Part shown: piece by piece, positions 40,374 through 57,098 of the stretch
How positions within the stretch are numbered: position 1 is the first letter of the stretch
Layout of the letters: each line of letters opens with the position of its first letter
Source of the DNA: Ignavibacterium sp.
GTDB lineage: Bacteria > Bacteroidota > Ignavibacteria > Ignavibacteriales > Ignavibacteriaceae
Direction of reading: 5' to 3'
Assembly: GCA_032027145.1 (NCBI GenBank)
Contig: JAVSMP010000001.1
Location: 896,903-960,902, forward strand
Length of the DNA stretch: 64,000 nucleotides
Notes under the pieces: model-generated
Databases searched by the model: none
Told to the model about the DNA's origin: nothing
The model's input: only the letters and a program-made list of their open reading frames with translations
Translations under genes and position numbers: made by a program

Positions 40374-43358
40374 TTAAAAGTTAACCAAAATGCCAGCAAC
40401 CAACTGTCTTGGAGGACCAAAGACATCAAAACCGTAAACATTAAATGCGGCTGCTCTGTTATTTAAACTTATTGCTCTGTAAAGGTCAGCAAATCTTTCA
40501 GTATACCTTGGATTAGCAATAAGAGTTTGTGCATCTGGCGTACTTAAGAATCCATCATCGTATGCGTTACCTGTTTTATCGTAAACATTTATCGCATTCT
40601 TTGTATTTAACAAATTAAAGACCTGAACATAGAGATTAAAATCAAAGTTCTCAATGTTAATGGTCTTGTCAATCCTGAGATCAAAATTATAAACCCATGG
40701 TGTTTCTGATGAGTTTATAGGTCCGTAAGGTCTTCTGCCTCTTGTATCACCAGTTCCGATTGGGGTAAGACCGCCAGTCCAGGCTGATGATTGACCCAAA
40801 CCCTGCCAGGTTGAATAGGTGAAGGGATGTCCGCTATTAAATGTAAATAATAAGTTTACACCAAGTTGTTCTAATATAGGACCGCCGTCTCCTTTATCAA
40901 ATCTGAAGTCAACAAAGAAAGAGCCTCTGTGAGTTTGATTGTAATCCAATGGAATTAATACAGTCGGTACGTTGCCGTTAACCTCTACTGAACCAACGCC
41001 ACTGTTTGACAATGAGTTTGTGCCTTGTGCGGATGAGTAGGTATAATTTATTCCTGCACTAAATCTTTCAATTCTTCTCATCTTAAAGCCAAGCTCCAAA
41101 CCTTTGGTTGTTGCAAAGTCCTGATTTGAGAAGACATTATATTTACTTCTTATAGCACCGGGTTCGGTAACCACAACTGTATATTGCAGCTGTCCTTTTA
41201 TGTCCTTATAAAATAAAGTAACATCAAGAGCTGCAAAGTCTGTAAATTGATGTGATAATCCGATTTCATATTGAGTTGTTCTAATCGGGCTAGGATTATA
41301 TGCAATCGGATTTGTAAATAAGTTAGCACCTTGAATCTGTTGAGCTGAGATGTAAACACCTCTGTAAGCAACATCCAAACTTGGTGACTGAACAAATTTT
41401 CCAAATTGCAAATGGAATACTGTTTTATCTGTAACCGGGAATGCAAATCCTAATCTTGGTGAGATATAACTAAATACATCACCTTTTCTGTAAGATGAAT
41501 CAGGTATAGTATGATTTATCCTGTCGATATCCGGGTTTAATGGATTTTCCCATGCCCAGCTATCCATGTCAATATAATCGTATCTTAAACCGGCATTAAT
41601 AATAAGATCACTAATTTCAAATCTGTCGGTTACATATCCTGAAATAAACAGTGGATGTTTGGGTGCAAATACACCATCAGCATCTGAGGTTTCATTACCG
41701 AACACGTCGAAACCATAATTATTGAAATTAGCGAACAATGTTGTTCCGATAAGAGTTGATAATGAATCTCTTGCCAAATCAGGATTATTTCTGATAGTTG
41801 ACAAGAAGTTACTTGGTGATCCGTTATCCCAGCGTCTTACAGTCCAGTATTGAAAACTACCGCCAATTTTCAGGGCGTGTTTTTCTAACTGTCCTGTATA
41901 TGAAGCAGTTGCGTTTATATAATTATTTTGATCTTTACGAAATCTGCTCAGGTTGGTTCCTGGTCTGTTAAACGGAAATCCATAAAAATCATATTGTGGT
42001 GGTGCTGAATAATAGTTTGCATATGTCCAGCCATGTTCTGCAGCAGCTAAGCTATCGCTGTATAGAAGAAAATTATCTTTGAAAATAGGATCATATATTT
42101 TTTCTCTGTAGTCAAAATAGCCGAGACTTGCTTCAATAAATGAATTTGATTCCAGCAGATATGTGCCCTTTAAATTTAATAAAAGACTTGATGCTTCAGT
42201 AACTTGCAATCTGTCGGAATTAAATATATTAAATATTCCATCTGTACCTTTTCCTGTTCTCCAAGTAAAAGCACCTGCCAGTCTTAATATCAATGGATTA
42301 TTATCAAATAGCAGAGTTCCGTTAGTTGTATATCTGTTATTTGAATTACCAAGAATATTTGCCGCATCCCATTTCAGATACTGGTAGTCAGTCTTGGATC
42401 CTCCAAAGGTACCATAATCATAAATCTTTGTTGTATCAAGAAGAGCTCCATCCGAAAATGCTGTGGGGTTGGCATCAAAAAATTTTCTGCTGTCCCTATC
42501 AAATGTGTTTTCTGCAGACAAGAAAATTTTAAGTTTATCGGAAACAATCGGTCCGCCGGCAGTTAATACATAATTTGAATAACCATAAGAATAAGTTCCT
42601 AAAAACTTTTCGCCGGGGTATTTGCCAAAATTATCTGTTTCAGCTCTAAAAGAGAATTTATATTGATTTGTTCCTGTCTTGAACTCTGATGAAACAATAC
42701 CTGCATTTGCGTTGCCAAACTCAGCAGTATAACCGCCAGCTTGAACAAGAACTTCTTGTAAAGCATCTGCAGTAACTGTTACAAGACTTCCGCCATTACG
42801 ATTCAATATATTTTTTGTATCAGTTCCTTCAACAGTGTAACCAGTTTCATCTGGTCTGCTGCCACGGATAAATGTTAATCCGTTTTGAGTAACAACACCG
42901 GGTTGAATCTGTACAATAGCATTTAAAGTTCTAAGACCAAGATTTTCTACATCCTCTGGTCCAATTCTTCTTAAAGCGTTGGTTGATGTTTTATCTATCA
43001 ATGGTCTTTCAGAAACAATTACAACTTCTCCGGTTGTAAGACCTGTTGGTTGCAACGTAAAATTTAGTCTGGTTGTTAAACCGGAAGTAACCAGTACATT
43101 ATTAACCGTTACATCAGTATAACCGATGTACGAAGCTTTAACACTATACTGTCCGGCAACTAGGTTAGTAATTAAGTACTCACCATTAACATCAGACGCT
43201 GCGCCCAAACTAGTACCTACAACAATTAAATTTGCCCCTATCAAGGGCTCTCCCGTTTGCTGATCAGTTACCAGACCAGAAATTCTACCGGTCTGTGCAA
43301 AGGTAATGAAGCAGGCAAACAGTATTAAAAGTAAAACCTTGTAAAATCTGGGAAACAT
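40374..43358 (-). CDS. TonB-dependent receptor with carboxypeptidase-like domain
   Basis: A 994-residue outer membrane receptor. Signal peptide to about residue 21 (ITFAQ); a CarboxypepD_reg-like beta-sandwich at about 24-105 (GRISGLVTDQQTGEPLIGANLIV, VKASYIGYTDVTVNNVLV); then a plug domain (VSERPLIDKTSTNALRRI, PDETGYTVEGTD) and a 22-strand type barrel ending QLVAGILVNF. No SusD partner is nearby; instead the partners are a DUF4397 lipoprotein and a T9SS cargo. Energy would come from TonB. The ligand is unknown. The ribosome site GGAGG is ideal, and the gap to the next gene is 60 bases. Confidence 0.93.
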   Translation of the reverse strand: MFPRFYKVLLLILFACFITFAQTGRISGLVTDQQTGEPLIGANLIVVGTSLGAASDVNGEYLITNLVAGQYSVKASYIGYTDVTVNNVLVTSGLTTRLNFTLQPTGLTTGEVVIVSERPLIDKTSTNALRRIGPEDVENLGLRTLNAIVQIQPGVVTQNGLTFIRGSRPDETGYTVEGTDTKNILNRNGGSLVTVTADALQEVLVQAGGYTAEFGNANAGIVSSEFKTGTNQYKFSFRAETDNFGKYPGEKFLGTYSYGYSNYVLTAGGPIVSDKLKIFLSAENTFDRDSRKFFDANPTAFSDGALLDTTKIYDYGTFGGSKTDYQYLKWDAANILGNSNNRYTTNGTLLFDNNPLILRLAGAFTWRTGKGTDGIFNIFNSDRLQVTEASSLLLNLKGTYLLESNSFIEASLGYFDYREKIYDPIFKDNFLLYSDSLAAAEHGWTYANYYSAPPQYDFYGFPFNRPGTNLSRFRKDQNNYINATASYTGQLEKHALKIGGSFQYWTVRRWDNGSPSNFLSTIRNNPDLARDSLSTLIGTTLFANFNNYGFDVFGNETSDADGVFAPKHPLFISGYVTDRFEISDLIINAGLRYDYIDMDSWAWENPLNPDIDRINHTIPDSSYRKGDVFSYISPRLGFAFPVTDKTVFHLQFGKFVQSPSLDVAYRGVYISAQQIQGANLFTNPIAYNPSPIRTTQYEIGLSHQFTDFAALDVTLFYKDIKGQLQYTVVVTEPGAIRSKYNVFSNQDFATTKGLELGFKMRRIERFSAGINYTYSSAQGTNSLSNSGVGSVEVNGNVPTVLIPLDYNQTHRGSFFVDFRFDKGDGGPILEQLGVNLLFTFNSGHPFTYSTWQGLGQSSAWTGGLTPIGTGDTRGRRPYGPINSSETPWVYNFDLRIDKTINIENFDFNLYVQVFNLLNTKNAINVYDKTGNAYDDGFLSTPDAQTLIANPRYTERFADLYRAISLNNRAAAFNVYGFDVFGPPRQLVAGILVNF

Positions 43359-43388
43359 TTTTTCCTCCGTTAATTATTAACTAGTTTA

Positions 43389-44105
43389 TTAATCATCTAC
43401 TAAAACCGCATTTTTAATGCTGGCGGCAACATCATATACAACTGCTGTATATCTGCTTTTTGATGCTACATTAAGATCGAATGTAGTATTTAAAGTGTCG
43501 TTATATGATATATTAAAACTATGTGAACCAGCAGTAAGTTTTATGTACCCCTTTGCTTTACCCGTAGCAAGCCCACCGGTAAAAGTGGTTTCCGTACCGT
43601 CTATGCTAACGCTGTTAAGTACTGCATCGGGTGATCCGTTAAAAAATGCGACCCATCCGAACCCATCAGGGAACAATGCTTCCCCTTCTTTGGAATCTTT
43701 TGTTTGCCAAACGTATCTTTGATTCATGACAACAGCAGAATTTGAACTATCATTGCCGACAAGAAAAACTCTGAATTTTCTTTCTGTCGTAGCTGCAAAT
43801 TTGTATGAGTTACTATTTGCACTAGCAAAATTAGCAGTAAGAGTTTTGTTTCCGGAAGTGATAGTTAGAAAACCATTCCCAGAGCCAGGAACTTCACCTC
43901 CTAAATCCGCTGAACCGAGGGACTGACCATTTAATATAAGAGACGCCAATCCAGCGCCGCTAACTAAATTGACAACCTTTATTTGACTGGAGTATTCAAT
44001 ACTGTCAGGAATAGGGTTGACACTAGTATCTACACATCCAGCAATAAGTAAAGCAGAAACAAAACTTATTGTAAATAGTAGTCTAGTTATGTAAGATGTT
44101 CTCAT
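43389..44105 (-). CDS. DUF4397 domain lipoprotein
   Basis: A 238-residue lipoprotein with lipidated Cys24 (SALLIAGC). The rest is a DUF4397 beta-sandwich: IKVVNLVSGAGLASLILNG, then FNGSPDAVLNSVSIDG and a last strand region SRYTAVVYDV. DUF4397 proteins are surface or periplasmic binding modules of unknown ligand. It is the first gene of the leftward operon with the TonB receptor, 30 bases ahead of it, so it may be a receptor lipoprotein playing a SusD-like part; this is inference. Very strong SD, AGGAGGT. Confidence 0.87.
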   Translation of the reverse strand: MRTSYITRLLFTISFVSALLIAGCVDTSVNPIPDSIEYSSQIKVVNLVSGAGLASLILNGQSLGSADLGGEVPGSGNGFLTITSGNKTLTANFASANSNSYKFAATTERKFRVFLVGNDSSNSAVVMNQRYVWQTKDSKEGEALFPDGFGWVAFFNGSPDAVLNSVSIDGTETTFTGGLATGKAKGYIKLTAGSHSFNISYNDTLNTTFDLNVASKSRYTAVVYDVAASIKNAVLVDD

Positions 44106-44674: not shown

Positions 44675-46216
44675 TCATAATCTTGTTAATAGTTTTAGTT
44701 CTATCCCCTGGAATGCAGGCTCAAACCGGCAAATACCGCCTATGCAGATATTACCTGCCTGCCTTGAACCAATAAGCAAACTTAAGTCTGAATGATTACT
44801 AAGTTTATATCCAAACTGTATAAAGCTCCAAAGTTTCCTGACAATTTTTCCTTCCTCGGGTTCTTTGGTCTGAATTTCGGTTACTAGTGACACGTTAAAA
44901 ACTGGTGAACGTAAATATTCAATGGCTATAACATCATCATAATATTTTTCGCTGGTAGTAAGGTTTTCGGTTTGCTGATGTTCAATTACAATTTTGATTG
45001 TATTGATATCATCAAAATAAAATTTGTTTTCAATAATTGGAGTAATGTTTTTTGTATTTGTTGAAAGCTCTTCATTATATCCCAATGCTGCTATTGTAGT
45101 AAAGGATTCATTCCAATTATGAGCAGCCTGAAAGTAAAATTCCTTTAGCTGTGTTGAAATTGGATTTGAAATATTGTTTACTCTCTGAAAATAAGAGCTT
45201 GTTGGAAGCGTTTTAGTAACGCCGTAATTTGCAGTTAAAGATGTTTCATCCGAAGGATTGAAATTCACTTCTAAAGCAAAACCATCTTCATTAGATTGAT
45301 CAAGCGGAGAAGGATGACGATTTAGTAATTGATAAGTATATTCTTTTCTTAATGAGGGCGATGTGTTGTAGAAAATTGTACCATCATAAGATGTAAATGC
45401 AAAATTGTCATAATGTTTGTACTCGCCAACAATTGAAAATGCATCGTAGTAAAAGTTTAAACTTCCATAAAACGCTTCTCCGATTTTCCACTCATTGTCA
45501 TTAAAAATCTGTGACTGAATATCTTTATTACTCTTAAATCCATATTCAGCGTAACCGTCAAAATTCCAGTAGGATGGCTGTATTCTGAATGAGCTGAGAG
45601 TAGTTCTGGCAATGGTTTCAATCTCTGGCTTGTTTGATGCGAATGTTGTACCAAGCTTTATAAAATCAAATCCATTGTAACTTAAATCTGCTGCATGCAA
45701 AATATCTTTTCTTTCGTTAACAGAGTTTGCTGCAGAACCTGTTAATGCAGAAAGCGAGAACCCCAGATAATTTGCTTTTACTTTTACACCAAGCAGATTA
45801 TTATCAATTCTGATATTTCTATCTTCATAGCTTTTTAAGATCATTCCTCTGCCGAATAATTCATAAAAGTTTCCCGCAGTTATGCTTATGCCTTTTTCAA
45901 TATCACCTATATCAACAGCAAAATATTTATAAGCAATATCCGCGTAATGTACTTTCCCTCGGCTGATGGAAGGATCGGGGTCATTTGGCTGAAAGGCTTC
46001 AAATCTAAATCCCGCACTGAAAATATTTTTATTATAATCAAGTGTAAGCCAGTTCTCAAATATTTCAATTTTATTATCAATGTTATAAGAGTATTCAAGT
46101 TGATTTGAAATTCCTAATCCATCAGGCAGCAAAAACCAGCTATCCGATTGGCTATAAAGTGTTGAAGAAAAAAATATCAATAAAATAATAATTTGATAAT
46201 AAGCAGAAGTTTTCAT
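44675..46216 (-). CDS. DUF6029-like outer membrane protein
   Basis: A 513-residue exported protein that resembles the DUF6029 family of predicted outer membrane barrels. Signal peptide MKTSAYYQIIILLIFFSSTLYSQ; then a long succession of amphipathic strands with acidic and Asn turns (ISNQLEYSYNIDNKIEIFENWLT, VDIGDIEKGISITAGNFYELFGRGM), ending FQGIELKLLTRL. No SD is seen, as often in this phylum. It is the last gene of the cluster with Omp28 and TlpA proteins but is set off by the terminator at 46251. In other Bacteroidota DUF6029 genes also sit beside Omp28 genes, as far as I recall. Confidence 0.72.
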   Translation of the reverse strand: MKTSAYYQIIILLIFFSSTLYSQSDSWFLLPDGLGISNQLEYSYNIDNKIEIFENWLTLDYNKNIFSAGFRFEAFQPNDPDPSISRGKVHYADIAYKYFAVDIGDIEKGISITAGNFYELFGRGMILKSYEDRNIRIDNNLLGVKVKANYLGFSLSALTGSAANSVNERKDILHAADLSYNGFDFIKLGTTFASNKPEIETIARTTLSSFRIQPSYWNFDGYAEYGFKSNKDIQSQIFNDNEWKIGEAFYGSLNFYYDAFSIVGEYKHYDNFAFTSYDGTIFYNTSPSLRKEYTYQLLNRHPSPLDQSNEDGFALEVNFNPSDETSLTANYGVTKTLPTSSYFQRVNNISNPISTQLKEFYFQAAHNWNESFTTIAALGYNEELSTNTKNITPIIENKFYFDDINTIKIVIEHQQTENLTTSEKYYDDVIAIEYLRSPVFNVSLVTEIQTKEPEEGKIVRKLWSFIQFGYKLSNHSDLSLLIGSRQAGNICIGGICRFEPAFQGIELKLLTRL

Positions 46217-46250
46217 TTTAATTTTGAATTAAGTTGTATGATAGGAAAAA

Positions 46251-46273
46251 TCCCTTGTATGATTTACAAGGGA
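46251..46273 (-). terminator. terminator after tlpA-like gene (leftward)
   Basis: TCCCTTGTA (46251-46259) and TACAAGGGA (46265-46273) form a 9-bp stem; on the minus strand a run of five T follows. Confidence 0.85.
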
Positions 46274-46287
46274 CTTTATTATTAAAA

Positions 46288-46794
46288 TTATTTTTCAAGT
46301 AATTCCAGCAGTAATTTTTCAACCTTTATCTCATCGCCTCTCATATAACCTAAATGCGAATATACAATATTACCATTTTTATCCAGCATAACTGTATATG
46401 GCATCTGTTGGGCATAATACTTTCTGGCTACATCACTATTTGTATCAAACAAAACTGTAAAATCATAGCCCTTTGATTTGATATAGGGTTTAACTTTTGC
46501 TACTGTCTTTTCAGTATCAGTAGAAATTGCTAATAGCTTGAATCCTTTATCCTTGTATTGAGAGTAAATTTTGTTGAACTCCGCCATTTCTTCAAGACAA
46601 GGCTTACACCACGTTGCCCAAAAACTAATAAGAATCGGACCGCTTCCGGTTTCTTTATTCAGTTCAACATACTTTCCATTCAAATCAGTAAGTTTAAAGT
46701 TAGGTGCTTTTCTACCTTTAAGATCTTCTTCGCTTTGTGCAAAAATTAAAGTTGAAACGAGAGTAATGATTAGTAATACCAATAATGATCTCAT
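46288..46794 (-). CDS. TlpA-like thiol-disulfide oxidoreductase
   Basis: A 168-residue periplasmic thioredoxin of the TlpA/ResA type. Signal peptide MRSLLVLLIITLVSTLIFAQ; AlkA-like start GRKAPNFKLTDLNGKYVEL; active site FWATWCKPCLEEM with Cys63 and Cys66; central insert LLAISTDTEKTVAKVK; cis-Pro YAQQMPYTVMLDKNG. It would keep exported Cys pairs reduced, for example in the Omp28-type proteins made upstream in the same cluster. Its ATG directly follows the TAG stop of the previous gene, so the two are translated together. Confidence 0.93.
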   Translation of the reverse strand: MRSLLVLLIITLVSTLIFAQSEEDLKGRKAPNFKLTDLNGKYVELNKETGSGPILISFWATWCKPCLEEMAEFNKIYSQYKDKGFKLLAISTDTEKTVAKVKPYIKSKGYDFTVLFDTNSDVARKYYAQQMPYTVMLDKNGNIVYSHLGYMRGDEIKVEKLLLELLEK

Positions 46795-47529
46795 CTATTT
46801 CTCCAGTATCATTTTTTTTGTTTGAACAAAACCATTTGCATTGATTTTATAGAAATAAATTCCGCTGCTTAATTTTGATGCATTGAAATCTACGCTATAA
46901 GTACCAACCGGTTTAAATTCGTTAACAAGCGCTGCAACTTTACTGCCAAGAATATTGTAAACAGATATTTCAACATTTCCGGCTTTAGCAATTCCATAGT
47001 TTATTTTTGTTGATGGATTAAAAGGGTTGGGATAATTTTGCTCAATAAAAAACTTTTTTACAGTAACAATTTCATCTTCAACAGATACAGGCATTGTTGT
47101 AGCTGTAAAATCAAGTGTTATTCTGTCGCTCGGATTCCTGAAAGTACCAACCTGAACCTGAACATTAGCCGTTCCGTTGTTATTGAGTGCCCAAACGTGG
47201 AGTGAGGTAATTAAAGTATCTCCGGGTCCTAAAGGATCAACAAAAAAATCCGGAGTAGTTGCAACGCTGTCGGTAAAAGGAGAAAAACAATTTATTCCAA
47301 AACATAAAGATGATTGCCAATCAGCCGGTAAGTTGTTGATTGTTCTTACTTCAAAAACAGTCTGCTGAAATGATGAAACATTTATTACTTCAAAATCAAA
47401 AACCATTTCTGAGCCAAGTGTGCTGTCAATAAATGTTCTGTGAACCACTACCTGAATATCCTGCGGGCTTGCTGTTTGTATTATCAAAACAGATAAGAAA
47501 AAAATCAAACTAAAAAATTTCTTCATCAT
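46795..47529 (-). CDS. small T9SS-sorted secreted protein
   Basis: A 244-residue protein with signal peptide (to about residue 22) and a single beta-sandwich domain (IQVVVHRTFIDSTLGSEMVFDFEVINVSS) before a complete T9SS type A sorting domain: QNYPNPFNPSTKINYGI, VEISVYNILGSKVAALVNE and FDASK-like LSSGIYFYKI ending KKMILEK. It contains two Cys in the motif SLCFGINCF (C..x4..C) which could be a TlpA substrate. Directly coupled to the TlpA gene. The surface role is unknown. Confidence 0.82.
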   Translation of the reverse strand: MMKKFFSLIFFLSVLIIQTASPQDIQVVVHRTFIDSTLGSEMVFDFEVINVSSFQQTVFEVRTINNLPADWQSSLCFGINCFSPFTDSVATTPDFFVDPLGPGDTLITSLHVWALNNNGTANVQVQVGTFRNPSDRITLDFTATTMPVSVEDEIVTVKKFFIEQNYPNPFNPSTKINYGIAKAGNVEISVYNILGSKVAALVNEFKPVGTYSVDFNASKLSSGIYFYKINANGFVQTKKMILEK

Positions 47530-47575
47530 ATATCCTGCATTTATTAAATATTAAATCCTTGTAAAATTTATTAAG

Positions 47576-47602
47576 TGGAAGGAATCAGAAAGATTCCTTC
47601 CA
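47576..47602 (-). terminator. hairpin after the large Omp28-type gene (leftward)
   Basis: TGGAAGGAATC (47576-47586) and GATTCCTTCCA (47592-47602) form an 11-bp stem with a five-base loop. No clean T-run follows on the minus strand, so it may only partly stop transcription inside the cluster. Confidence 0.65.
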
Positions 47603-47615
47603 AATTAATTTAGTC

Positions 47616-49691
47616 CTACTTTAAAATACTCATCTTTTTAATCTGAGAAAAACTATTTGTCGTCATTTTATAGAAGTAAACTCCGGAGGTTAAACCTGCG
47701 GCGTTAAATTCTACTTCATAATTTCCGGGCTGCTTAACTTCGTTAACAATAGTTGCAACTTTTTGACCTGTTAAATCATAAATCACAATTGAAACCAATC
47801 CGCTTTGCGGGACAGAATAATTTATTTTTGTCGAAGGGTTAAACGGATTTGGATAATTCTGACCAAGTGCAAAATCTACTGGAGTTTCCAAAACAACAGA
47901 AACAACATCACTATACTCTATACTGCCATTGTAATCAACTTGTTTTAATCTGTAATAAATTTTCTCTGTTCCTTTCAAGTCAATATTATCAGTAAAAGAA
48001 TATGATTTAGATTCAGTTGTTGTACCGTTTCCTTTTACAAATCCTATAGAAATAAAGTTTTCTCCATTATAAGATCTTTCAACCTCAAATCCGAGATTGT
48101 TAATTTCTGTTGCTGTTGTCCAGTTAAGTGTTACCTTTCCAACAGAAGCTGCTGCAGTAAATGAAGTCAATTCCACCGGTAATGGAGCTAATTCATTCAA
48201 GGCGATTTTTGTCCCTTGCAGAATTTCTTTGTCATTTAGATTTTGAATAAAAGAAACCAGCTCGCAATTTTCTGCAACCCAGCTTGCATTGCGGGTAAAG
48301 TTCAAATTAATATCAACAACATTGCCAGATGAAAAGTCCAAAGCTGTTCCAAGTTGATCTGGTACCATAAGACGCTCAGCATTGTTTATCTTTGTCTGAT
48401 TAAACCAGTTAAACGAAATATCTGATTCAGTTAAAGCAAGATGCAAAACCAGATTATTGTAAGAAGAAGGAATGGATGCAGTTTTAGTAACTCGTATTGT
48501 TAATGAATAATCAAGTTGATTATTTTGCCCGAAAATTTCAATCTCAAAAGCCGAGTTTTTATTCTTTCTGTTCTCATACATAGGAAGATAAACAGGATAC
48601 AAACTGGTGGTGCCGCTTCCGCCTACATAGTAATTAACACCATCAAACACTGCTGTTGGATAACCGGAAATTCCGTAGTAACTGTTTCTTGCATTAGAAT
48701 AATTGTTAGTAAATGAATCTCCGTTATGATATTTAATTACCCCAACCATTTTTCCATTATCAAGAAGATCGTGTGCGCCCATTGATGCTCCAGGGCAAAA
48801 CTGACACCAGGTACCCGTAGCAATTTCCAGAATTACCATATCTCTGACTGTTGTGTATGTATCAAATGATTCTGTTCTCGAATCATTAGTTGGATCCATA
48901 TCTCCTGAAAGATTTGTTGTAACCGTTATTTCGTATAGTTCATTTGCCAAGGCAGGTGTAAAATCAGCAAATGAAACTGTTTGCTCTTGACCAGCAGTTA
49001 ATGTTACGTTAGAGCAGTCTTGTGTATATATGCTTGTTCCGTTAACTTTGATTACACAAGTTGCATTGAATGTTTCCGAGTTCAATCCAAAATTTTTTAA
49101 GATAGCTTGCGGTGTAAATGGAATTCCTGCGCTGTATTCTGGATCAACAATAATATCTTTAACCATTGCATCATGTGCAAACGGGATAAAGAGTTTGATA
49201 TCATCAATATACCAGTAATTTATGTTATAAGAGTTTCCTGAAAAAAACATACACACCTGAAAGTTTGATGAACCAACATCAGGATTTGTAATAGTTATAA
49301 TTTGCTCTTCCTGCATACTGCCTGTAGGATTAACCTTTGACCATACAACATTCCAGGTTCCATTGTTGGATCTGGTAGCAGCACCAACAGTATAAGAACC
49401 GCCATAATGATCAATTGAATGTTTGAACTGTAAAGTAACAGTTGTTTGTCCGGTAAGATCAACCGAAGGAGAAATAAAACGGCTGATGCCATTAAAGGTT
49501 GGTGAATAATTAAATCTTAATTCAGGAGCTGTTCCCCCTGCATTTGCACTATTAGTAGCTGTCCAATTAGCCGCCTGTGCATCGATTGTCCATCCAGCCG
49601 GCGGAAAAGAGCCAGTAAATGTAACATTTAGTAAAGTCTGAGCACTTACTAAGAAAGAAAGTAAGAACACGAAAGTAAATATTTTTCGCAT
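47616..49691 (-). CDS. Omp28-type protein with T9SS sorting domain
   Basis: A 691-residue secreted protein of several modules. Order: signal peptide (to about 18); a jelly-roll/MAM-like adhesion module (FPPAGWTIDAQAANWTATNSA ... NYWYIDDIKLF, about 20-170); a CARDB-like stretch (about 171-280); an Omp28-like domain with CxxC at C296 and C299 (ATGTWCQFC) and a Pro loop GISGYPTAVFDG; an Fn3-like segment (ELTSFTAAASVGKVTLNW); and a T9SS type A sorting domain (QNYPNPFNPSTKINYSV to the end). The CxxC plus Pro loop indicates a thioredoxin-like fold on the cell surface. Upstream SD AGGGGATAAT. Confidence 0.85.
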   Translation of the reverse strand: MRKIFTFVFLLSFLVSAQTLLNVTFTGSFPPAGWTIDAQAANWTATNSANAGGTAPELRFNYSPTFNGISRFISPSVDLTGQTTVTLQFKHSIDHYGGSYTVGAATRSNNGTWNVVWSKVNPTGSMQEEQIITITNPDVGSSNFQVCMFFSGNSYNINYWYIDDIKLFIPFAHDAMVKDIIVDPEYSAGIPFTPQAILKNFGLNSETFNATCVIKVNGTSIYTQDCSNVTLTAGQEQTVSFADFTPALANELYEITVTTNLSGDMDPTNDSRTESFDTYTTVRDMVILEIATGTWCQFCPGASMGAHDLLDNGKMVGVIKYHNGDSFTNNYSNARNSYYGISGYPTAVFDGVNYYVGGSGTTSLYPVYLPMYENRKNKNSAFEIEIFGQNNQLDYSLTIRVTKTASIPSSYNNLVLHLALTESDISFNWFNQTKINNAERLMVPDQLGTALDFSSGNVVDINLNFTRNASWVAENCELVSFIQNLNDKEILQGTKIALNELAPLPVELTSFTAAASVGKVTLNWTTATEINNLGFEVERSYNGENFISIGFVKGNGTTTESKSYSFTDNIDLKGTEKIYYRLKQVDYNGSIEYSDVVSVVLETPVDFALGQNYPNPFNPSTKINYSVPQSGLVSIVIYDLTGQKVATIVNEVKQPGNYEVEFNAAGLTSGVYFYKMTTNSFSQIKKMSILK

Positions 49692-49819
49692 ATTATCCCC
49701 TGTGGATAAGTAAAAAAATAAAGTTAATTAATTTTAAGAAGCCAAAAAATTTTAATTCAATATATCCAGATAAAAAGTTTATTGTTTTGACCATTAAGAG
49801 TATTATAAAATTGAGTAAA

Positions 49820-49859
49820 GCCCGCTTTCTGTTTAGATAAAAGCTAAGCAAAAGCGGGC
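49820..49859 (-). terminator. terminator after the 680-residue Omp28-type gene (leftward)
   Basis: GCCCGCTTT (49820-49828) and AAAGCGGGC (49851-49859) form the stem; TTTAG/CTAAG pairing extends it inwards. A TTTA stretch follows on the minus strand. It ends 10 bases from the stop codon. Confidence 0.8.
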
Positions 49860-49869
49860 ATAATGATTG

Positions 49870-51912
49870 TTACTTAAGCAGTAGCATTTTTCTTGTTTGT
49901 ACCAGTCCGCTTGACTGAAGTTTATACAAATAAACTCCTGAAGAGAGCTTAGATGCATCAAAACTAACTTCATAAGTGCCGCCAGGTTTCTCTTCATTGA
50001 TCAGTGTAATTATTTCATTTCCAAGAATATCATAAACCTTTAAAGTTGTTAAGGATTTTTCGCTTAAAGTAAAAGCAATTTTCGTTGATGGGTTAAATGG
50101 ATTTGGATAATTCTGTTTCAGATCAAACACTAAAGGCAGGCTGCCTTGGTCTTCAATTCCCACAACATTTTCTGAGAGCCAATTCAAGCATCGTGATGCA
50201 AGAGTATCTTTGATTGCTTGTTCATTTATTTGTTCAAAACCTGCAACCATATAAATTACTCTGTAATTATCTGCGATTGCTCTGATACCGGCAATATCTG
50301 GTCCGTTAAAATATTGTAAGAAAGTTATTGCACTTGAATCTCTTGGACTAATTTTATCCAGCGATCTTGGATAAACAGCGTTGGCAATAATTTGAATTCC
50401 ATTAGAAATAATATCACCCGGTATGCCTTTAATAATAAACAGGTTGGAAACATCAGCTACATAATTAGCATGTAAATAGTTATGATAGAAATCCTGTGCA
50501 AACTGACTGCTGCCGGAAGTTCCAAATATATCAGCGCCAAGATTTTGACCTGTAATTAATAGATTACCGCCGGCATCCAGGTAATCCTCTAATTTTGAAA
50601 CTTCATTTTCAAAGAAAGCACGCTTAGCGTTACTGCTCTGCCAAACCAAAATTCCAAAATTGGATAGATCAACACCTGCTGGTTCCAATGCATTTCTGGA
50701 AACCAATCCGTATGTTCCATCAAAAACATTTTCTATTGAAGTGGTAACATCTGAGCCGAATGCAATATCTCCAGCTCTGATAACAAGAACATCTATTCCG
50801 CTGGTGGTTACAAAATTAAAACCAGTTTCTCTAGACATACCCGGATTATTCTTTGATTCAAACTCAACTGATATTTTACCATAGCCATCAGTACCTTGCG
50901 GGTTAACAACAACCTGTATTACTGCAGAATCACCAGGAATAACCTGAATCGAATCGAGTGTTCCAAAGGGAAAGGTTCCATTTGCGGTTGTAAATTCACC
51001 AGTCCAGTCGCCGGGTGCAGTAAGTGAACAGCTAATGTTATAAACATCCTGCTTCATTCCAACATTTTTAACCACTGAACTAAATGTTACCGGTGTATTA
51101 TTATCAGCAATAATATCTGGGCTTTGCGGATTTATCTGTGCAACATAGTCTGGAGTAAATTCCAGCATTTCAGATTGATAGATATATTTATTGGTTTCAT
51201 TTTGTATAAATGCAACTATCCTTAAACTATCCATATTTACTGCCTGTAGAAAAGCAGTGGTTGGCACATATTGTAGAATATATTCAACAGAATCACCGGG
51301 AGCGGGAATTGTTATTGTTGTTCCGTTTGCATCCGGAAGCATCTTTCTTGTAACACTGGAAAAATGCATTTCACCGTTTGTGCCCGGAGCAGTTTGGAAA
51401 TAAACCATCTTTTCTGTAATGCCGACTTTAAGTTTTGTTGTAGTGAAAGTGGTATGGTCATTTGGGTCACGCAGTATTCTGACTCCAACTTCAATTAAGT
51501 TATCTGATAATGCCCTTTGCATCAAAACTATTTTAAACGGTGAAATTTCTGAGTTTCCGCTATTTACGGCATTCATCGTTGCTGTACTAGTGCTGGTAGA
51601 AACTCTTGTTCCGTTTACTATAATATCCGGAACGCCATTAACACTATAATAATTTGTTCTTATGGTATTGTCAGATTGATTTAATAGATACATAGGGTCA
51701 TTAGGACCGGGCCACCAAACATGATAAATAATGTGTGATATAGTTTGTGACTGAATTAAATTTGCAACAGTGTTATTATACCATGAATTGTTAACAACTG
51801 CACAAGGTCCGCAAGACGCATTAGTAAATCTTTCAACAATTGATTTTCTATCGTAAGAATAACTGCTGAAAGCAAAACCCAATAGCAAAAGTATCAGTAA
51901 TATTCTTTTCAT
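49870..51912 (-). CDS. Omp28-type protein with T9SS sorting domain
   Basis: A 680-residue secreted protein. The signal peptide (SSYSY) is followed at once by an Omp28-like domain: VERFTNASCGPCAVVN (C34, C37) with a Pro loop VNGVPDIIVNG. A CARDB-like region (AQINPQSPDIIADNNTPVTF) and a ThuA-like/PEGA-free glutamine-amidotransferase-like region (LVWQSSNAKRAFFENEVSKLEDYLDAGGNLLITGQNLG, about 400-570) come next, then a T9SS type A sorting domain (QNYPNPFNPSTKIAFTL ... SSGVYLYKLQ). The Gly-rich LLITGQN turn resembles ThuA-like folds but no catalytic Cys is visible. Good SD, AAAGGAG. Confidence 0.83.
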   Translation of the reverse strand: MKRILLILLLLGFAFSSYSYDRKSIVERFTNASCGPCAVVNNSWYNNTVANLIQSQTISHIIYHVWWPGPNDPMYLLNQSDNTIRTNYYSVNGVPDIIVNGTRVSTSTSTATMNAVNSGNSEISPFKIVLMQRALSDNLIEVGVRILRDPNDHTTFTTTKLKVGITEKMVYFQTAPGTNGEMHFSSVTRKMLPDANGTTITIPAPGDSVEYILQYVPTTAFLQAVNMDSLRIVAFIQNETNKYIYQSEMLEFTPDYVAQINPQSPDIIADNNTPVTFSSVVKNVGMKQDVYNISCSLTAPGDWTGEFTTANGTFPFGTLDSIQVIPGDSAVIQVVVNPQGTDGYGKISVEFESKNNPGMSRETGFNFVTTSGIDVLVIRAGDIAFGSDVTTSIENVFDGTYGLVSRNALEPAGVDLSNFGILVWQSSNAKRAFFENEVSKLEDYLDAGGNLLITGQNLGADIFGTSGSSQFAQDFYHNYLHANYVADVSNLFIIKGIPGDIISNGIQIIANAVYPRSLDKISPRDSSAITFLQYFNGPDIAGIRAIADNYRVIYMVAGFEQINEQAIKDTLASRCLNWLSENVVGIEDQGSLPLVFDLKQNYPNPFNPSTKIAFTLSEKSLTTLKVYDILGNEIITLINEEKPGGTYEVSFDASKLSSGVYLYKLQSSGLVQTRKMLLLK

Positions 51913-51947
51913 AATTATCTCCTTTATATTGTTTGTTCATATCTTGA

Positions 51948-52931
51948 TTAAAACGTTGAGCCCGCCTGATAAATTTCTTTGGTTTCTTTATTCTGTATAA
52001 ATACTACTGTGTTAAGATTGCTTTGAATCCAGTTCTGATTAATTGCTATCTGCCTTTGGAAAGTATATGTGCCTGTCTGGTTTATTGATGCAAGAGATTC
52101 GCCTTGATTATCGGGAAGCATTTTTCTCATAACATCATAAAATTTGGTTTCGCCGTTCGATCCGGGCGGAGTTGCAAATTCTATATTTGTCTCTGTTACT
52201 ACAGTGTGTAAAACAAGTTTTGAAAAATCCAGATTTGTTAAATCTTTTACTTCAACAGAAATTTCTATTATAAAATTATTTGCATTAATATTTGATTGAA
52301 CAGTAATCCTGAATTGAGGGATCTTTGCCAACTCGCTTATCACTTTTGCTTTTACATCATTAGAATCAGATGGTATCGGTTTTAGCTTTCCGTTTACAAC
52401 GTTTGTTGGTGCTAAGATAATTGAGTAATAGCCCATTCTTGAATTACAATCCGGACCATTAGCCAGATAAAACGGATCGACAGGCGAAGGGAAGTTTGTT
52501 GGAAATTTTACAGCGACAAGTTTACTTCTTCCGAAAGAATGATTTGTTAACTGCTCAAGTATTTTATTACTCGTTACACAAGGCACACAGCTTACATTTG
52601 CAAAATCTTCAATCAACACTACTTTATCAGCCGCATAAAGATTAAAGTTCATCTCAACAGTGCCGTTCTTAATAACATTCACATTCTGTTTTGTTATATC
52701 ATACGCATCTTTTCTTAATTCTATTGTATGATTTCCAACTGTTGTTTTAATGGTATCCGGAGTTACCTTTCCTGTATTATTACCATCTAGGAATATTTGA
52801 GCATCACCAACATTTGAGAGAATCTTTATTGTCCCATATTCATTTATTACAACAGCGGGGGTTGTTGGGGGATTTGTCTGACAATTAAAAAGCAGTAAAG
52901 AAACAACAATTATTAACAATAAATTTTTCAT
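51948..52931 (-). CDS. PEGA-Omp28 fusion lipoprotein
   Basis: A 327-residue lipoprotein (MKNLLLIIVVSLLLFNC, Cys17). A Pro/Thr linker leads to a PEGA domain (GTIKILSNVGDAQIFLDGNNTGKVTPDTI ... HTIELRKDAYD, about 33-100), a module that binds surface polymers. The rest is an Omp28-like domain with CxxC at C115 and C118 (ANVSCVPCVTSNK) and a Pro loop LAPTNVVNG, ending in the region shared with the next gene (FATPPGSNGETKFYDVMRKMLPD). That block also occurs in the 680-residue protein, FQTAPGTNGEMHFSSVTRKMLPD. So the two proteins are related. It has no sorting domain and is anchored by lipid instead. It is the first gene of the cluster. Confidence 0.86.
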   Translation of the reverse strand: MKNLLLIIVVSLLLFNCQTNPPTTPAVVINEYGTIKILSNVGDAQIFLDGNNTGKVTPDTIKTTVGNHTIELRKDAYDITKQNVNVIKNGTVEMNFNLYAADKVVLIEDFANVSCVPCVTSNKILEQLTNHSFGRSKLVAVKFPTNFPSPVDPFYLANGPDCNSRMGYYSIILAPTNVVNGKLKPIPSDSNDVKAKVISELAKIPQFRITVQSNINANNFIIEISVEVKDLTNLDFSKLVLHTVVTETNIEFATPPGSNGETKFYDVMRKMLPDNQGESLASINQTGTYTFQRQIAINQNWIQSNLNTVVFIQNKETKEIYQAGSTF

Positions 52932-53089
52932 AAATAGTTAAGCTTAGTAAATCTCTGACTGTTTTATATTTAGCAAATATAAAACTTAAGTTTTGTCTTA
53001 AAAATTGGAATTGATACAGTCATTTTCAAGATTTTTTTTACAAATATTTATTTTGAGAATGATAGAAATGACGCATTTTCAAACAATTC

Positions 53090-53452
53090 TTAATCTGCAG
53101 CAGCTAACCAGTAGCCGCTCATCGAAAATATTCGCGAGTCCGCCCAGGTTCTGACCTTGATAGTAAATCCATCTTTTGACACAGATACCGCCTCTGCTTT
53201 ATATCTTAAATTTGAATTTTTATCAGCATCAAGCTGGGATACACTCAGAATAATCTCAGGTGTCTTTTCGAAGGGCGTGTCAAACTTAATTTCGAGAATC
53301 ATGTTTCTATCACCATTATTTTTATCCAGCGAATACTCCGCAAGCGCAGGATTTACAGACCAACTGCCGCGTAGGATTGTGCTTTGGGCAAAGGTAGTAA
53401 ATGAAAAAAGAATTAAAAGAAGAATTAATGAAAAATGTGTGGTCTTTGGCAT
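53090..53452 (-). CDS. small secreted H-type lectin
   Basis: A 120-residue protein with signal peptide MPKTTHFSLILLLILFSFTTFAQ and one H-type lectin domain, recognised from FDTPFEKTPEIILSVSQLDADKNSNLRY and GFTIKVRTWADSRIFSMSGYWLA. This fold binds GalNAc-type sugars in animal and Dictyostelium lectins and forms trimers. In bacteria it is uncommon and its ligand is unknown. It is leftward, 159 bases ahead of the PEGA-Omp28 gene, so it could belong to the same surface cluster. The protein is only the domain plus signal. Confidence 0.83.
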   Translation of the reverse strand: MPKTTHFSLILLLILFSFTTFAQSTILRGSWSVNPALAEYSLDKNNGDRNMILEIKFDTPFEKTPEIILSVSQLDADKNSNLRYKAEAVSVSKDGFTIKVRTWADSRIFSMSGYWLAAAD

Positions 53453-53937: not shown

Positions 53938-54780
53938 ATGATAGTTTATTTCAATTCAAGATTTCTTCATAAAGACGATGTTAAAATATCGCCTTTCGAC
54001 CGTTCATTTCTTTTTGCTGACGGTGTTTATGAAGCATTAAGATCGTATAATCAAAAACTTTTTAGATTGGAAGATCATCTTAAAAGATTAAAACATAGTT
54101 TAAACGAGCTATCAATTCCTTTTTCTGATTTTAACAGTATTGAAACAATTGCTAAAGAGCTTGCAAAGAAAAACAGTATTAATTCAGAGTATTCTTTTTA
54201 TGTACAGATTAGCAGAGGAATTAGTTTTCCAAGAACTCATCATTTTGCAAATAATATAACTCCAAATGTTTTTGCTTTTGTTAAACCAATTGCTGATAAC
54301 AGGAAACAAATTGAAGAAGGTGTTTCAGTCGTTCTGGAAAAAGATCTTCGCTGGTTAAGATGTGATATTAAATCAACTTCTATATTACCGGCTGTCTTGG
54401 CAAGTCAAAAAGCTTTTTCGTCAGGTGCTTTTGAAGCTGTTTTGCACCGCAATAATTTATTAACAGAAGGTTCACACACAAGTTTTTTTGCTGTCAGGAA
54501 TAATACTATTTACACAGCCCCGCTTTCAAACTATATTTTAGACGGAATAACAAGAAAAGTAGTATTAGAGCTTTGTAAAGATAGTCAAATAGATTTCAGT
54601 GAGATAAATATTAAAGTAGATGAATTAAAATCTTATGATGAGTTTTTTATTACCGGAACAACAACTGAGGTTACTCCAATAATTAAAATAGATGATTGGT
54701 TTGTAAATAATGGCAAACCCGGCAAAGTAACAGAAGACATTCAAAGGCTTTTTAATGTTTATACTAAAAATTTCCGATGA
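53938..54780 (+). CDS. D-amino acid aminotransferase (class IV PLP enzyme)
   Basis: A 280-residue class IV aminotransferase. The block LRCDIKSTSILPAVLASQKA with the PLP lysine K145 fits D-alanine aminotransferase better than branched-chain enzymes, as do SGAFEAVLHRNNLLTEGSHTSFF and ITGTTTEVTPI. It would make D-glutamate from D-alanine for peptidoglycan or degrade D-amino acids; aminodeoxychorismate lyase is a related alternative. It overlaps the next gene by four bases (ATGA). A racemase-like gene in the same rightward run acts on the same kind of substrate. Confidence 0.88.
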   Translation: MIVYFNSRFLHKDDVKISPFDRSFLFADGVYEALRSYNQKLFRLEDHLKRLKHSLNELSIPFSDFNSIETIAKELAKKNSINSEYSFYVQISRGISFPRTHHFANNITPNVFAFVKPIADNRKQIEEGVSVVLEKDLRWLRCDIKSTSILPAVLASQKAFSSGAFEAVLHRNNLLTEGSHTSFFAVRNNTIYTAPLSNYILDGITRKVVLELCKDSQIDFSEINIKVDELKSYDEFFITGTTTEVTPIIKIDDWFVNNGKPGKVTEDIQRLFNVYTKNFR

Positions 54781-57098
54781 ATAAAAAACGGGAAATATCG
54801 GCAGATGTTTTTATCCTCACGGGTGAATGGATTGATTATAATGGTAGAAACATATTAAAGCTTATCGGAACGAGTGATGAAATTGGACCGGTTGAAATTA
54901 TAATCACAAACAATAAACCAGTTTTCTTCGTTGAAAACACAGCGATACTAACTCCGCTGAAAAAAAACTTTTTAAGAAAAGAAACCAGGCTTCAAAACTT
55001 CAATCGTCAGCCGGTTGATGCTATTTATTTTAATACTCAAAAAGAACTTGTCGCACTTGCCGATTCAATTCATGAATCAGAGATTAAAACCTATGAGTCA
55101 GATATAGATCCTTTACGAAGATATCTGATGGAAAAAGGAATAAACTCCCAACTAAAGGTTACCGGTACTATTGAGCAAAGAAGTTTACTGACTAGATTTA
55201 TTAATCCGGTTATCGAGCCATGTACAATTAATCCGAGATTTGTTATCGCTTCATTAGATATTGAAACCGGCACAAAGTCAAATCAGCTTTATTCTATAGC
55301 TGTTCACATAACCGGAAAACAAGCAGAGCAAAAAAAGGTTTTTATGCTGGGCGAAAAACCAAAGAACTCCCCGGATTATATTTCTTTTTATGCCGAAGAA
55401 AAGGATTTGTTAGTAAACTTTTTTAACTGGTTCAAAGAAATTGATCCTGATATTATTATTGGCTGGCATGTTATCGGTTTTGATTTACTTTTTCTTGATA
55501 ACAAGTGCCGCAGACTGGGGATAAGTCTTGATATTGCAAGAGCAAATGGAAGAGTTTCTATAAGACAAAGAAAACCATCAGGATATTTTATTTCTCTTAC
55601 CGGAAGAGTTGTAATTGATGGTCCTGCAATGCTTAGAGCTTCATTTTTTAATTTTGAGGATTTCAAACTCGAAACAGTTGCACAGGAACTTTTAGGAGAA
55701 GGAAAGACAATCTCTCCTGATACGAAAAAAGTTGAAGAAATTGAAAGACAATTTAAAGAAGATAAAATATCTCTGGCTGAATATAATCTGCAGGATGCTG
55801 TTCTCGTCTCCGATATATTTAGTAAAACTGGTTTGATTGAATTATCCGTTCGCCGTGCTCAGATTTCTGGTTTGTTAATGGATCAGCTTGGAATGATGAC
55901 TGCTGCTTTCGATCACTTATATCTTCCTAAACTGCATCAGGCTGGATTTGTAGCACCAAACCTAAAAGATATTTACATAGCCGGACACGCCCCAGGCGGA
56001 TATGTAATTGAGCCGGTTCCGGGAATCTATGAAAATATTGTTGTTCTTGATTTCAAAAGTTTGTATCCATCAATTATGCAGACTTTTAAGATCGATCCTT
56101 ATTCTTTACTGATGAAAGAAACAGATACGATTGAAACGCTTAACGGTTATAGGTTTTCGTCTTCATTGCATATTCTGCCTGGTTTTATAAATGAGCTGAT
56201 GAAACAGCGTGATGAAGCTAAAAAGAAAAAAGATAAACAGCTTTCGCAGGCAATAAAAATTCTGATGAACAGCCTTTATGGTGTAATGGGCTCATACAAC
56301 TGCAGATTTTATCATCCTGATTTGCCAAAGGCAATTACAGGAAGCGGACATAAACTTTTACTCGGAAGTAAAGAATATCTTGAAAAGAGAGAGCTTAAAG
56401 TAATATACGGCGATACTGATTCATTATTTGTTATGTTAAAAGATGTTGCCGATGAAAGTGGTGAAACACAGGGAAAAAAAATTGTTAAAGAGTTAAATCA
56501 ATTCTGGAAAAACAAACTTAAGAAAGAATATAAAGTTGAATCATATCTGGAACTTCAATTTGAAAAATTTTATAAACAGTTTATTATAACTCCTGCTCGC
56601 GGTGCTGATATTGGTGCAAAGAAACGTTATGCCGGATTAGTAATTAAAGAAGACACAGAAAACATAGAGTTTGTTGGAATGGAATCTGTGCGTTCCGATT
56701 GGACTAAGCTTGCAAAGGAGTTTCAAATTGAGTTATATAAAAAAATTTTCCATCACGATGAGGTTGAGGATTGGATAAGAGAAGTTATTAAAGAATTAAA
56801 ATCAGGTAAGTTTGATGATAAGCTGATCTACAAGAAAAGATTACGAAAGGAAATAATAGACTATACCAAAAACATTCCGCCACATGTAAGGGCTGCAAAA
56901 TATTTGAATGAGCCAGGAGATATAATCTATTATGTAATTACTCAGCGCGGTCCGATACCTATCGAGTTAAAACATAATGATTTTGATTATGATCATTATA
57001 TCGAAAAACAATTAAAGCCGATTGCTGATTCTGTTTTATCTTTACTTGGAAAAAACTTTGATGACATTGCAGGAGATGTTCAATTAAGTTTCTTTTAA
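54777..57098 (+). CDS. polB: DNA polymerase II (family B)
   Basis: A 773-residue family B DNA polymerase with proofreading, similar in length to E. coli Pol II (783). The exonuclease site is seen as D161/E163 in SLDIETG and in IIGWHVIGFDLLFLDNKCR. The polymerase motifs are A (D425, DFKSLYPSIM), B (KILMNSLYGVMGS, about residue 494 on) and C (YGDTDSLF, D546/D548). Pol II copies damaged DNA and restarts forks. It lies in an unusual place, overlapping an aminotransferase gene by ATGA, which makes their expression coupled. Confidence 0.95.
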   Translation: MNKKREISADVFILTGEWIDYNGRNILKLIGTSDEIGPVEIIITNNKPVFFVENTAILTPLKKNFLRKETRLQNFNRQPVDAIYFNTQKELVALADSIHESEIKTYESDIDPLRRYLMEKGINSQLKVTGTIEQRSLLTRFINPVIEPCTINPRFVIASLDIETGTKSNQLYSIAVHITGKQAEQKKVFMLGEKPKNSPDYISFYAEEKDLLVNFFNWFKEIDPDIIIGWHVIGFDLLFLDNKCRRLGISLDIARANGRVSIRQRKPSGYFISLTGRVVIDGPAMLRASFFNFEDFKLETVAQELLGEGKTISPDTKKVEEIERQFKEDKISLAEYNLQDAVLVSDIFSKTGLIELSVRRAQISGLLMDQLGMMTAAFDHLYLPKLHQAGFVAPNLKDIYIAGHAPGGYVIEPVPGIYENIVVLDFKSLYPSIMQTFKIDPYSLLMKETDTIETLNGYRFSSSLHILPGFINELMKQRDEAKKKKDKQLSQAIKILMNSLYGVMGSYNCRFYHPDLPKAITGSGHKLLLGSKEYLEKRELKVIYGDTDSLFVMLKDVADESGETQGKKIVKELNQFWKNKLKKEYKVESYLELQFEKFYKQFIITPARGADIGAKKRYAGLVIKEDTENIEFVGMESVRSDWTKLAKEFQIELYKKIFHHDEVEDWIREVIKELKSGKFDDKLIYKKRLRKEIIDYTKNIPPHVRAAKYLNEPGDIIYYVITQRGPIPIELKHNDFDYDHYIEKQLKPIADSVLSLLGKNFDDIAGDVQLSFF

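Follow-up and report, generated by a model that had tools for sequence, protein, structure and literature searches.

We analysed a stretch of 64,000 nucleotides from Ignavibacterium sp. (contig JAVSMP010000001.1; the whole stretch is called the window), whose genome of 3.67 Mb belongs to the Ignavibacteriales. Between positions 44,675 and 53,452 of the window, seven leftward genes encode, in the order of transcription, an H-type lectin, three proteins of the Omp28 type (O1, O2 and O3, family O), a protein with a cysteine pair (X), a thioredoxin of the TlpA/ResA type (T) and a DUF6029 protein (D), which is predicted to be an outer-membrane barrel (Table 1). Along this order, the intergenic gaps measure 158, 35, 178, 86, 0 and 71 bp. 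The seven genes had been described in an earlier reading of the window (the original prediction), and all of these open reading frames were found, with their families assigned by Pfam and NCBIfam. The three CxxC motifs that had been located in the O proteins were confirmed, and each is followed by a proline loop, with P175 in O1, GVPDIIVNG from residue 93 in O2 and GYPTAVFDG from residue 343 in O3. Pfam also bore out the sorting tails of the type IX secretion system (T9SS) on O2, O3 and X. O1 is the lipid-anchored member with a PEGA domain; its C17 lies in a lipobox-like LLLFNC, recognized by eye, and it has no T9SS tail. O and X are therefore described below as probable surface proteins. At a threshold of E 0.001, the genome has three Omp28 matches, all at this locus, one DUF6029 match and seven TlpA-like matches including T.

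Table 1. Features of the locus and their positions in the window
Feature	Position	Strand	Assignment
H-type lectin	53090..53452	-	Pfam H_lectin 1.1e-22; local accessory
O1	51948..52931	-	Lipoprotein; PEGA 1.9e-09, Omp28 2.7e-15 (Pfam); CVPC 115-118, P175
O2	49870..51912	-	Omp28-type domain, CGPC 34-37, further sequence, T9SS tail 9.3e-11 (Pfam)
O3	47616..49691	-	N-terminal extra region, Omp28 2.8e-10, CQFC 296-299, T9SS tail 2.7e-10 (Pfam)
X	46795..47529	-	PorA-N-like domain, Cys pair C76/C81 (CFGINC), T9SS tail 2.5e-12
T	46288..46794	-	TlpA/ResA-type thioredoxin; Redoxin 2.3e-27 (Pfam), WATWCKPC (C63/C66), signal peptide by eye
D	44675..46216	-	DUF6029 8.4e-60 (Pfam); predicted outer-membrane barrel
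D codons C491-C496 (CIGGIC)	44729..44746	-	Conserved barrel Cys pair

The most telling feature of the locus is a cysteine pair in D that the original prediction did not list. C491 and C496 are the only cysteines of D, which matched DUF6029 (PF19494) with 203.4 bits against a cut-off of 27, and they form a C-x4-C motif at the tip of its last hairpin. Relatives were collected in several samples. For the class set, the Pfam profile was used to collect 80 neighbourhoods of DUF6029 genes in 78 genomes; 88 genomes of the class have D, and 10 of them were left out (G040, G050, G067, G081, G088, G094, G100, G101, G107 and G137). For the named set, GTDB genomes were scanned, and the 80 top-ranking of 514 relatives were kept. 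These two sets share some genomes (e.g., L087 and L158) and hence are not independent; together they comprise 160 loci. The phylum set took in the locus of every phylum genome that has D without Pfam Omp28, 20 genomes in all. The named-set scan used two patterns, one of which includes the cysteine pair of D; this bias does not affect the class and phylum sets, which are based on the Pfam profile. In L110 and L116 of the class set, D was missed by the first gene caller and was recovered in six frames. In the named-set scan, D of the window was 91% and 96% identical to that of L144 and L167, metagenome-assembled genomes titled ‘Bacteroidetes bacterium’ and ‘Ignavibacteriota bacterium’, and the next-best matches were from Ignavibacteriales.

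In the class set, the first cysteine of the pair was kept in 77 of 78 sequences and the second in 78 of 78. The single gap is taken to be L081, where the C-terminal frame is broken. No further cysteine was found after residue 30 in 56 of these 78 sequences. The pair was present in 35 of 36 frames of the phylum set as well, the exception being the truncated frame of L255, while L249 gave no D. All 66 sequences of the D alignment (65 of 75 D stretches plus that of the window) also carry it, partly by construction because the named-set scan pattern includes the pair.

The AlphaFold2 model of D had a predicted local distance difference test score (pLDDT) of 92.8 and a predicted template modelling score (pTM) of 0.87, and we counted 24 long strands in its DSSP line. 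A signal peptide of D was recognized by eye. Turns of 2-5 residues follow the even strands and loops of up to 38 residues follow the odd ones, so that the last hairpin with C491 and C496 belongs to the side of the long loops, which is presumably the outer one. The parity of the strands and the length of the loops thus suggest a position of the pair on the outer face. The best barrel match of the model was the FimD pore (3OHN; Z 19.1, rmsd 4.4, 368 residues, full-length fit). Since many unrelated barrels were matched at Z 15-19, only the barrel class of D is secure. Chain 6R2Q_B of the Mtr complex, which we take to be MtrB, was among the Foldseek matches, as were many barrels, and a PDB sequence-profile search with D gave no match up to E 0.1. 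With 24 strands, the lumen of the barrel may be wide enough to admit T.

The O proteins differ widely in sequence but share a CxxC pair. Against the Pfam Omp28 cut-off of 34.9 bits (PF11551), O1 (57.1) and O3 (40.7) scored above and O2 (24.9; 2.0e-05) below, although O2 carries the CxxC and the proline loop. The CxxC was found in 69 of 69 O proteins of the class set. Among 73 aligned O sequences (72 of 92 O stretches plus one of the window's own), with a mean identity of 19%, only E108, C115 and C118 were invariant, and P175, E247, R269 and G277 were nearly so. A thioredoxin-like arrangement had been suspected from the CxxC and proline loop, and the model of O1, the O protein that was modelled, agrees with it. 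The pLDDT of this AlphaFold2 model exceeded 90 over about residues 101-327, which form a thioredoxin-like domain followed by strands fitting a β-sandwich; CVPC 115-118 lies where helix 116-132 begins, and P175 precedes strand 176-179. The best PDB match was HBP35 (5Y1A; Z 24.4, rmsd 2.4, 217 residues), followed by 2AXO (Z 19.7), 2R2C (Z 9.1) and thioredoxins (Z about 7-9 over residues 102-204). Searched against the PDB, the sequence profile of O found 2R2C (3e-27), HBP35 (1.4e-09) and thioredoxins too. According to the model, O1 has the two-domain fold of HBP35, a thioredoxin-like domain plus a β-sandwich.

None of the three O proteins reached the cut-off of two related NCBIfam families, which is 200 bits for NF045500, ‘Omp28-related selenoprotein’ (O3 70.5, O1 35.2 and O2 29.7), and 150 bits for NF033782, ‘Omp28 family outer membrane lipoprotein’ (O1 58.5 and O3 22.2). 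Selenocysteine in the Omp28 proteins of the class was rejected, with 0 of 149 genomes above the NF045500 cut-off. Some Omp28 matches list an internal stop, which we would guess to be a terminal stop or a frameshift.

T was classed as a TlpA/ResA-type thioredoxin by its fold-family match, its WCxxC and a signal peptide recognized by eye. The nearest NCBIfam model was ResA, with 117.7 of 170 bits, and no cut-off was reached. The motif WATWCKPC occurs in 76 of 141 T-class proteins of the samples. Five T-class proteins lack a CxxC and were, by eye, peroxiredoxin-like, glutathione-peroxidase-like or a piece at a contig end. For X, the sole Pfam match was its T9SS tail. The domain in front of this tail was found in 60 of the 160 loci, that is, 20 of 80 in the class set, 25 of 35 Ignavibacteriales-like and 15 of 45 other loci in the named set. 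Fifty of 62 X segments are located in the region of T, 0.3-2.6 kb upstream of D, with 33 of them on the strand of D and 17 on the opposite strand. A Cx3-4C pair was found in 67 of 67 full domains from these 60 loci, and among 32 aligned sequences (31 of the 67 domains plus that of the window; 19% identity) only N50, C76 and C81 were invariant. The X profile matched PorA-N at E 5.5e-4, a weak match over part of the domain in which the cysteine pairs were aligned. The X family (46795-47529) would thus extend a distantly PorA-N-like domain to other Bacteroidota, whereas PorA homologues have been reported only in Porphyromonas. We regard X as a candidate client or redox sensor.

A gene order confined to this genome would have refuted the original prediction, but the order is kept well beyond it. 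T and O were assigned with purpose-built profiles under a best-score rule, T was counted when it lay on the strand of D and within 500 bp, and a locus was called testable when its flank on the relevant side measured 900 bp or more; loci with shorter flanks were excluded from the order counts. T was found upstream of D in 64 of 77 testable loci of the class set and 62 of 71 of the named set (126 of 148 in total); O follows D directly in 52 of 78 class loci and in 34 of 71 named loci (86 of 149 in total). The order T, D, O was seen in 43 class and 23 named loci. The 35 Ignavibacteriales-like loci of the named set share the layout of the window: T adjoins D in 29 of 30, and O lies upstream in 16 of 21 and downstream in 1 of 32. 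The class set spans 16 GTDB families, and in 14 of them T was found within 2 kb upstream of D; family f21 was left out of this judgement, with a single locus (L138) that has no upstream flank. In L256-L260, T is divergent from D. Since T-class matches away from D amount to only 0.004 per kb in the 160 loci, the linkage of T and D is well beyond chance. Genes of about 520-562 amino acids with a CxxC, which follow D in family f3, were considered as a new kind of Omp28 and rejected, as the two that were scanned are RNase E/G. One locus on a contig titled Desulfobulbaceae (L199) carries D and O, perhaps through misbinning and perhaps through transfer.

D and Omp28 also occur together across genomes. 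At E 0.001, among the 149 genomes of the class, 88 have both, 3 have Omp28 only, none has D only and 58 have neither (Fisher value 3e-38, which ignores phylogeny). Within the order of the window both states stand side by side, with the two genes present in 2 of 6 genomes of family f1 and in 6 of 14 of family f2. Among 247 genomes of the phylum, 69 have D, 53 have Omp28 and 49 have both. For the phylum genomes with D but no Pfam match to Omp28, our own profile found an O downstream of D in G242 and no D in G323. Most informative was family f36 (L231-L246), in which Pfam Omp28 was not found. In 16 of 16 readable loci, D keeps its cysteine pair, T lies upstream and a redoxin-fold protein lies about 100-140 bp downstream, and in 12 of 16 a second redoxin follows at about 620-660 bp. 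In the loci whose proteins were read (L231, L233, L238 and L240), the first redoxin has a lipobox-like cysteine by eye, the second has a T9SS-like tail by eye in L231, L238 and L240, and all downstream redoxins that were read carry CPHC. In this family, Omp28 thus appears to be replaced by a different member of the thioredoxin family that bears surface addresses of the same kinds. G315 has a lipoprotein-like redoxin upstream of T, and G287 has T and D only.

DsbD exports reductant across the inner membrane, and thioredoxins of the ResA type have a reductive role. The genome of the window has one DsbD_TM match, a full-length DsbD in a frame of 599 amino acids whose C-terminal part shows, by eye, a WCIPC motif; searches of this genome for VKOR and DsbB gave no match. 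In the class, DsbD_TM was found in 144 of 149 genomes. Among the matches listed, frames of at least 550 amino acids occur in 83 of the 88 genomes with D versus 28 of the 61 without D; the remaining genomes with D are four with frames of 383-486 amino acids, perhaps cut, and one that is not listed. Frames below 350 amino acids, the size of CcdA, occur among the matches listed in 0 of 88 versus 23 of 61, two further genomes without D being in between and eight being not listed or without a match. VKOR was found in 6 of 88 genomes with D versus 20 of 61 without. D is thus associated with O and with full-length DsbD.

We give an even chance to the proposal that T, D and O form a thiol-disulfide module spanning the outer membrane and fed by DsbD, with X as a likely client or sensor. 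DsbD in the inner membrane would reduce periplasmic T, and T would in turn reduce, either directly or by way of the barrel lumen, the cysteine pair that D carries in its outward-facing last hairpin. D would then keep the surface thioredoxins O, whether lipid-anchored or exported through T9SS, in the reduced state, and O would act on disulfides of the cell surface, X among them. The original prediction had T supply electrons through the barrel. The invariant cysteine pair of D, the redoxin replacing Omp28 and the association with DsbD argue for this idea, while the outward direction of flow and the passage by way of D are what we infer from them. In its stricter form the proposal describes a cofactor-free electron conduit made of thiols, in which a 24-strand barrel with an invariant cysteine pair is flanked by thioredoxins inside and outside, and by which many Bacteroidota might deliver electrons from DsbD to surface disulfides. 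We put this form forward tentatively and rate its chances as somewhat short of even.

Several observations weigh against the proposal. D has one cysteine pair only, presumably on the outer side, whereas T is periplasmic; equal conservation would be expected if the pair were simply a structural disulfide. No O was found near D in 22 loci with wide flanks, and 19 loci that extend 900 bp or more upstream of D gave no T. All 11 loci of family f3 have T but none of the 11 has O beside D, and T was found in 0 of 3 loci of f20 and 3 of 7 of f11. O lies on the opposite strand in 3 of 44 wide-flank named loci and in L251 and L255. The DsbD and VKOR counts follow lineages and were not corrected for phylogeny. 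Finally, a likeness of Wzi-type barrels to DUF6029 in HHpred has been taken to hint at a possible polysaccharide role (PMC9603273).

The chief rival of the conduit is a dedicated folding set, in which the pair of D would be a structural or allosteric disulfide, T and O would make, proofread or isomerise the disulfides of D, X and other surface proteins, and no electrons would pass through the barrel. A CxxxxC hairpin is plausible as a structural disulfide, cysteine pairs are found in D, O and X alike, and a tight linkage of T and D would fit a dedicated helper. In addition, a plasmid with hbp35 complemented an Escherichia coli dsbA mutant in earlier work cited in PMC2907840. However, a second, surface-addressed thioredoxin, which is linked to D and replaced by redoxins in f36, exceeds the need of one disulfide, and the genome of the window gave no match to VKOR or DsbB. 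The replacement in f36 and the association with DsbD favour the pathway over the folding set, which we consider rather unlikely.

It is less probable still that D is a porin or exporter for a polysaccharide, a metal, a small thiol or a PorA-like protein, with the thioredoxins serving only to gate or protect it. The HHpred likeness of DUF6029 to Wzi-type barrels (PMC9603273) would agree with such a role. A variant makes D an usher for X, because D fits the FimD pore best and PorA-N resembles the FimH lectin domain; PorA was at the surface in T9SS mutants and has a FimH-like fold, according to PMC7712824. Against this, the Z values of 15-19 are common to many unrelated barrels, X is present at 60 of the 160 D loci only whereas T adjoins D in most, and no polysaccharide-export gene was seen among the neighbours scanned with Pfam in a few loci, which is weak evidence. 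The pathway might also be used in reverse, with external oxidants reaching periplasmic thiols by way of O, D and T and replacing the DsbB/VKOR route for disulfides. The lack of a DsbB or VKOR match in this genome, in a search that covered no other oxidases, and the lower VKOR count in class genomes with D (DsbB was not searched in the class) would suit such a use, but D is tied to full-length DsbD, and the type closest to T, ResA, is reductive; we consider this use very improbable.

The thiol-disulfide module of T, D and O proposed here has partial counterparts in known systems. MtrCAB combines a periplasmic carrier, an outer-membrane barrel and a surface redox protein. Porin-cytochrome conduits have the same three components as are proposed for T, D and O, whereas thiols would take the place of haems in the latter; we claim no membership by sequence. 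T is of the kind found in the periplasmic thiol pathways of DsbD, TlpA and ResA, and the genome has a full-length DsbD. To our knowledge, these known pathways stop in the periplasm; the set of T, D and O, unlike them, appears to reach the surface.

Surface thioredoxins as such are already known, and so is PorA. HBP35 (PGN_0659/PG0616) of Porphyromonas gingivalis is located on the surface and known as a hemin-binding protein, and the recombinant protein reduces insulin, an activity lost with C48S/C51S (PMC2907840). Like the O proteins, it has a CxxC and, as in the O1 model, a thioredoxin-like domain plus a β-sandwich, and its T9SS tail corresponds to those of O2 and O3; O1, in contrast, is a lipoprotein with a PEGA domain. 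The Omp28 of P. gingivalis, a 28 kDa outer membrane protein (2R2C, PF11551), belongs to the same family as O, but in its structure the match to the profile begins at position 57, and the chain is without the CxxC part. The Pfam name may hide the thioredoxin domain for this reason. PorA (PGN_0123; 6KJK) resembles X in having a signal peptide, an N-terminal domain and a T9SS tail. PorA is located at the surface and influences PorXY-SigP signalling, and its homologues were found only in Porphyromonas (PMC7712824); the word ‘disulfide’ has 0 occurrences in that paper.

The original prediction knew of no described system with this set of genes. That view holds for the set as a whole, as no paper joining surface thioredoxins or PorA to DUF6029 and TlpA was found in the literature searched. 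It does not hold for the parts: the fold of Omp28 matches HBP35, X has a distant match to PorA, and NCBIfam already has the name ‘Omp28-related selenoprotein’. The literature searched gave no published link of HBP35 to a TlpA-barrel pair, no paper naming both Omp28 and selenoprotein and no description of how surface thioredoxins such as HBP35 are re-reduced outside the cell. The only paper on DUF6029 found in it concerns polysaccharide export (PMC9603273). If the proposal is true, thiol pathways extend beyond the periplasm, the re-reduction of surface thioredoxins is explained, DUF6029, a family of unknown function, gains a role, and the surface disulfides of members of a large phylum are under the redox control of the cell itself.

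The H-type lectin had been noted upstream of the other genes. The gene is present, but it was seen only in the closest relatives and is therefore not a core member: it was found in 6 of the 160 loci, namely that of the window and five close relatives, and gave 0 matches in 37 further loci. Its distance upstream of D is about 5-8 kb in these relatives, too far for loci with short flanks to reveal it. In the window, an Rfam scan gave nothing at gathering scores, and a promoter and terminator scan gave no clear excess over shuffled sequences. Downstream of D, beginning after 569 bp, a DUF4397 protein and a TonB-receptor-like protein (by eye) are encoded at 40374-44105. On the other side, at 54777-57098 and on the opposite strand, a protein of 773 amino acids that by eye resembles family B DNA polymerases lies beside an aminotransferase-like gene.

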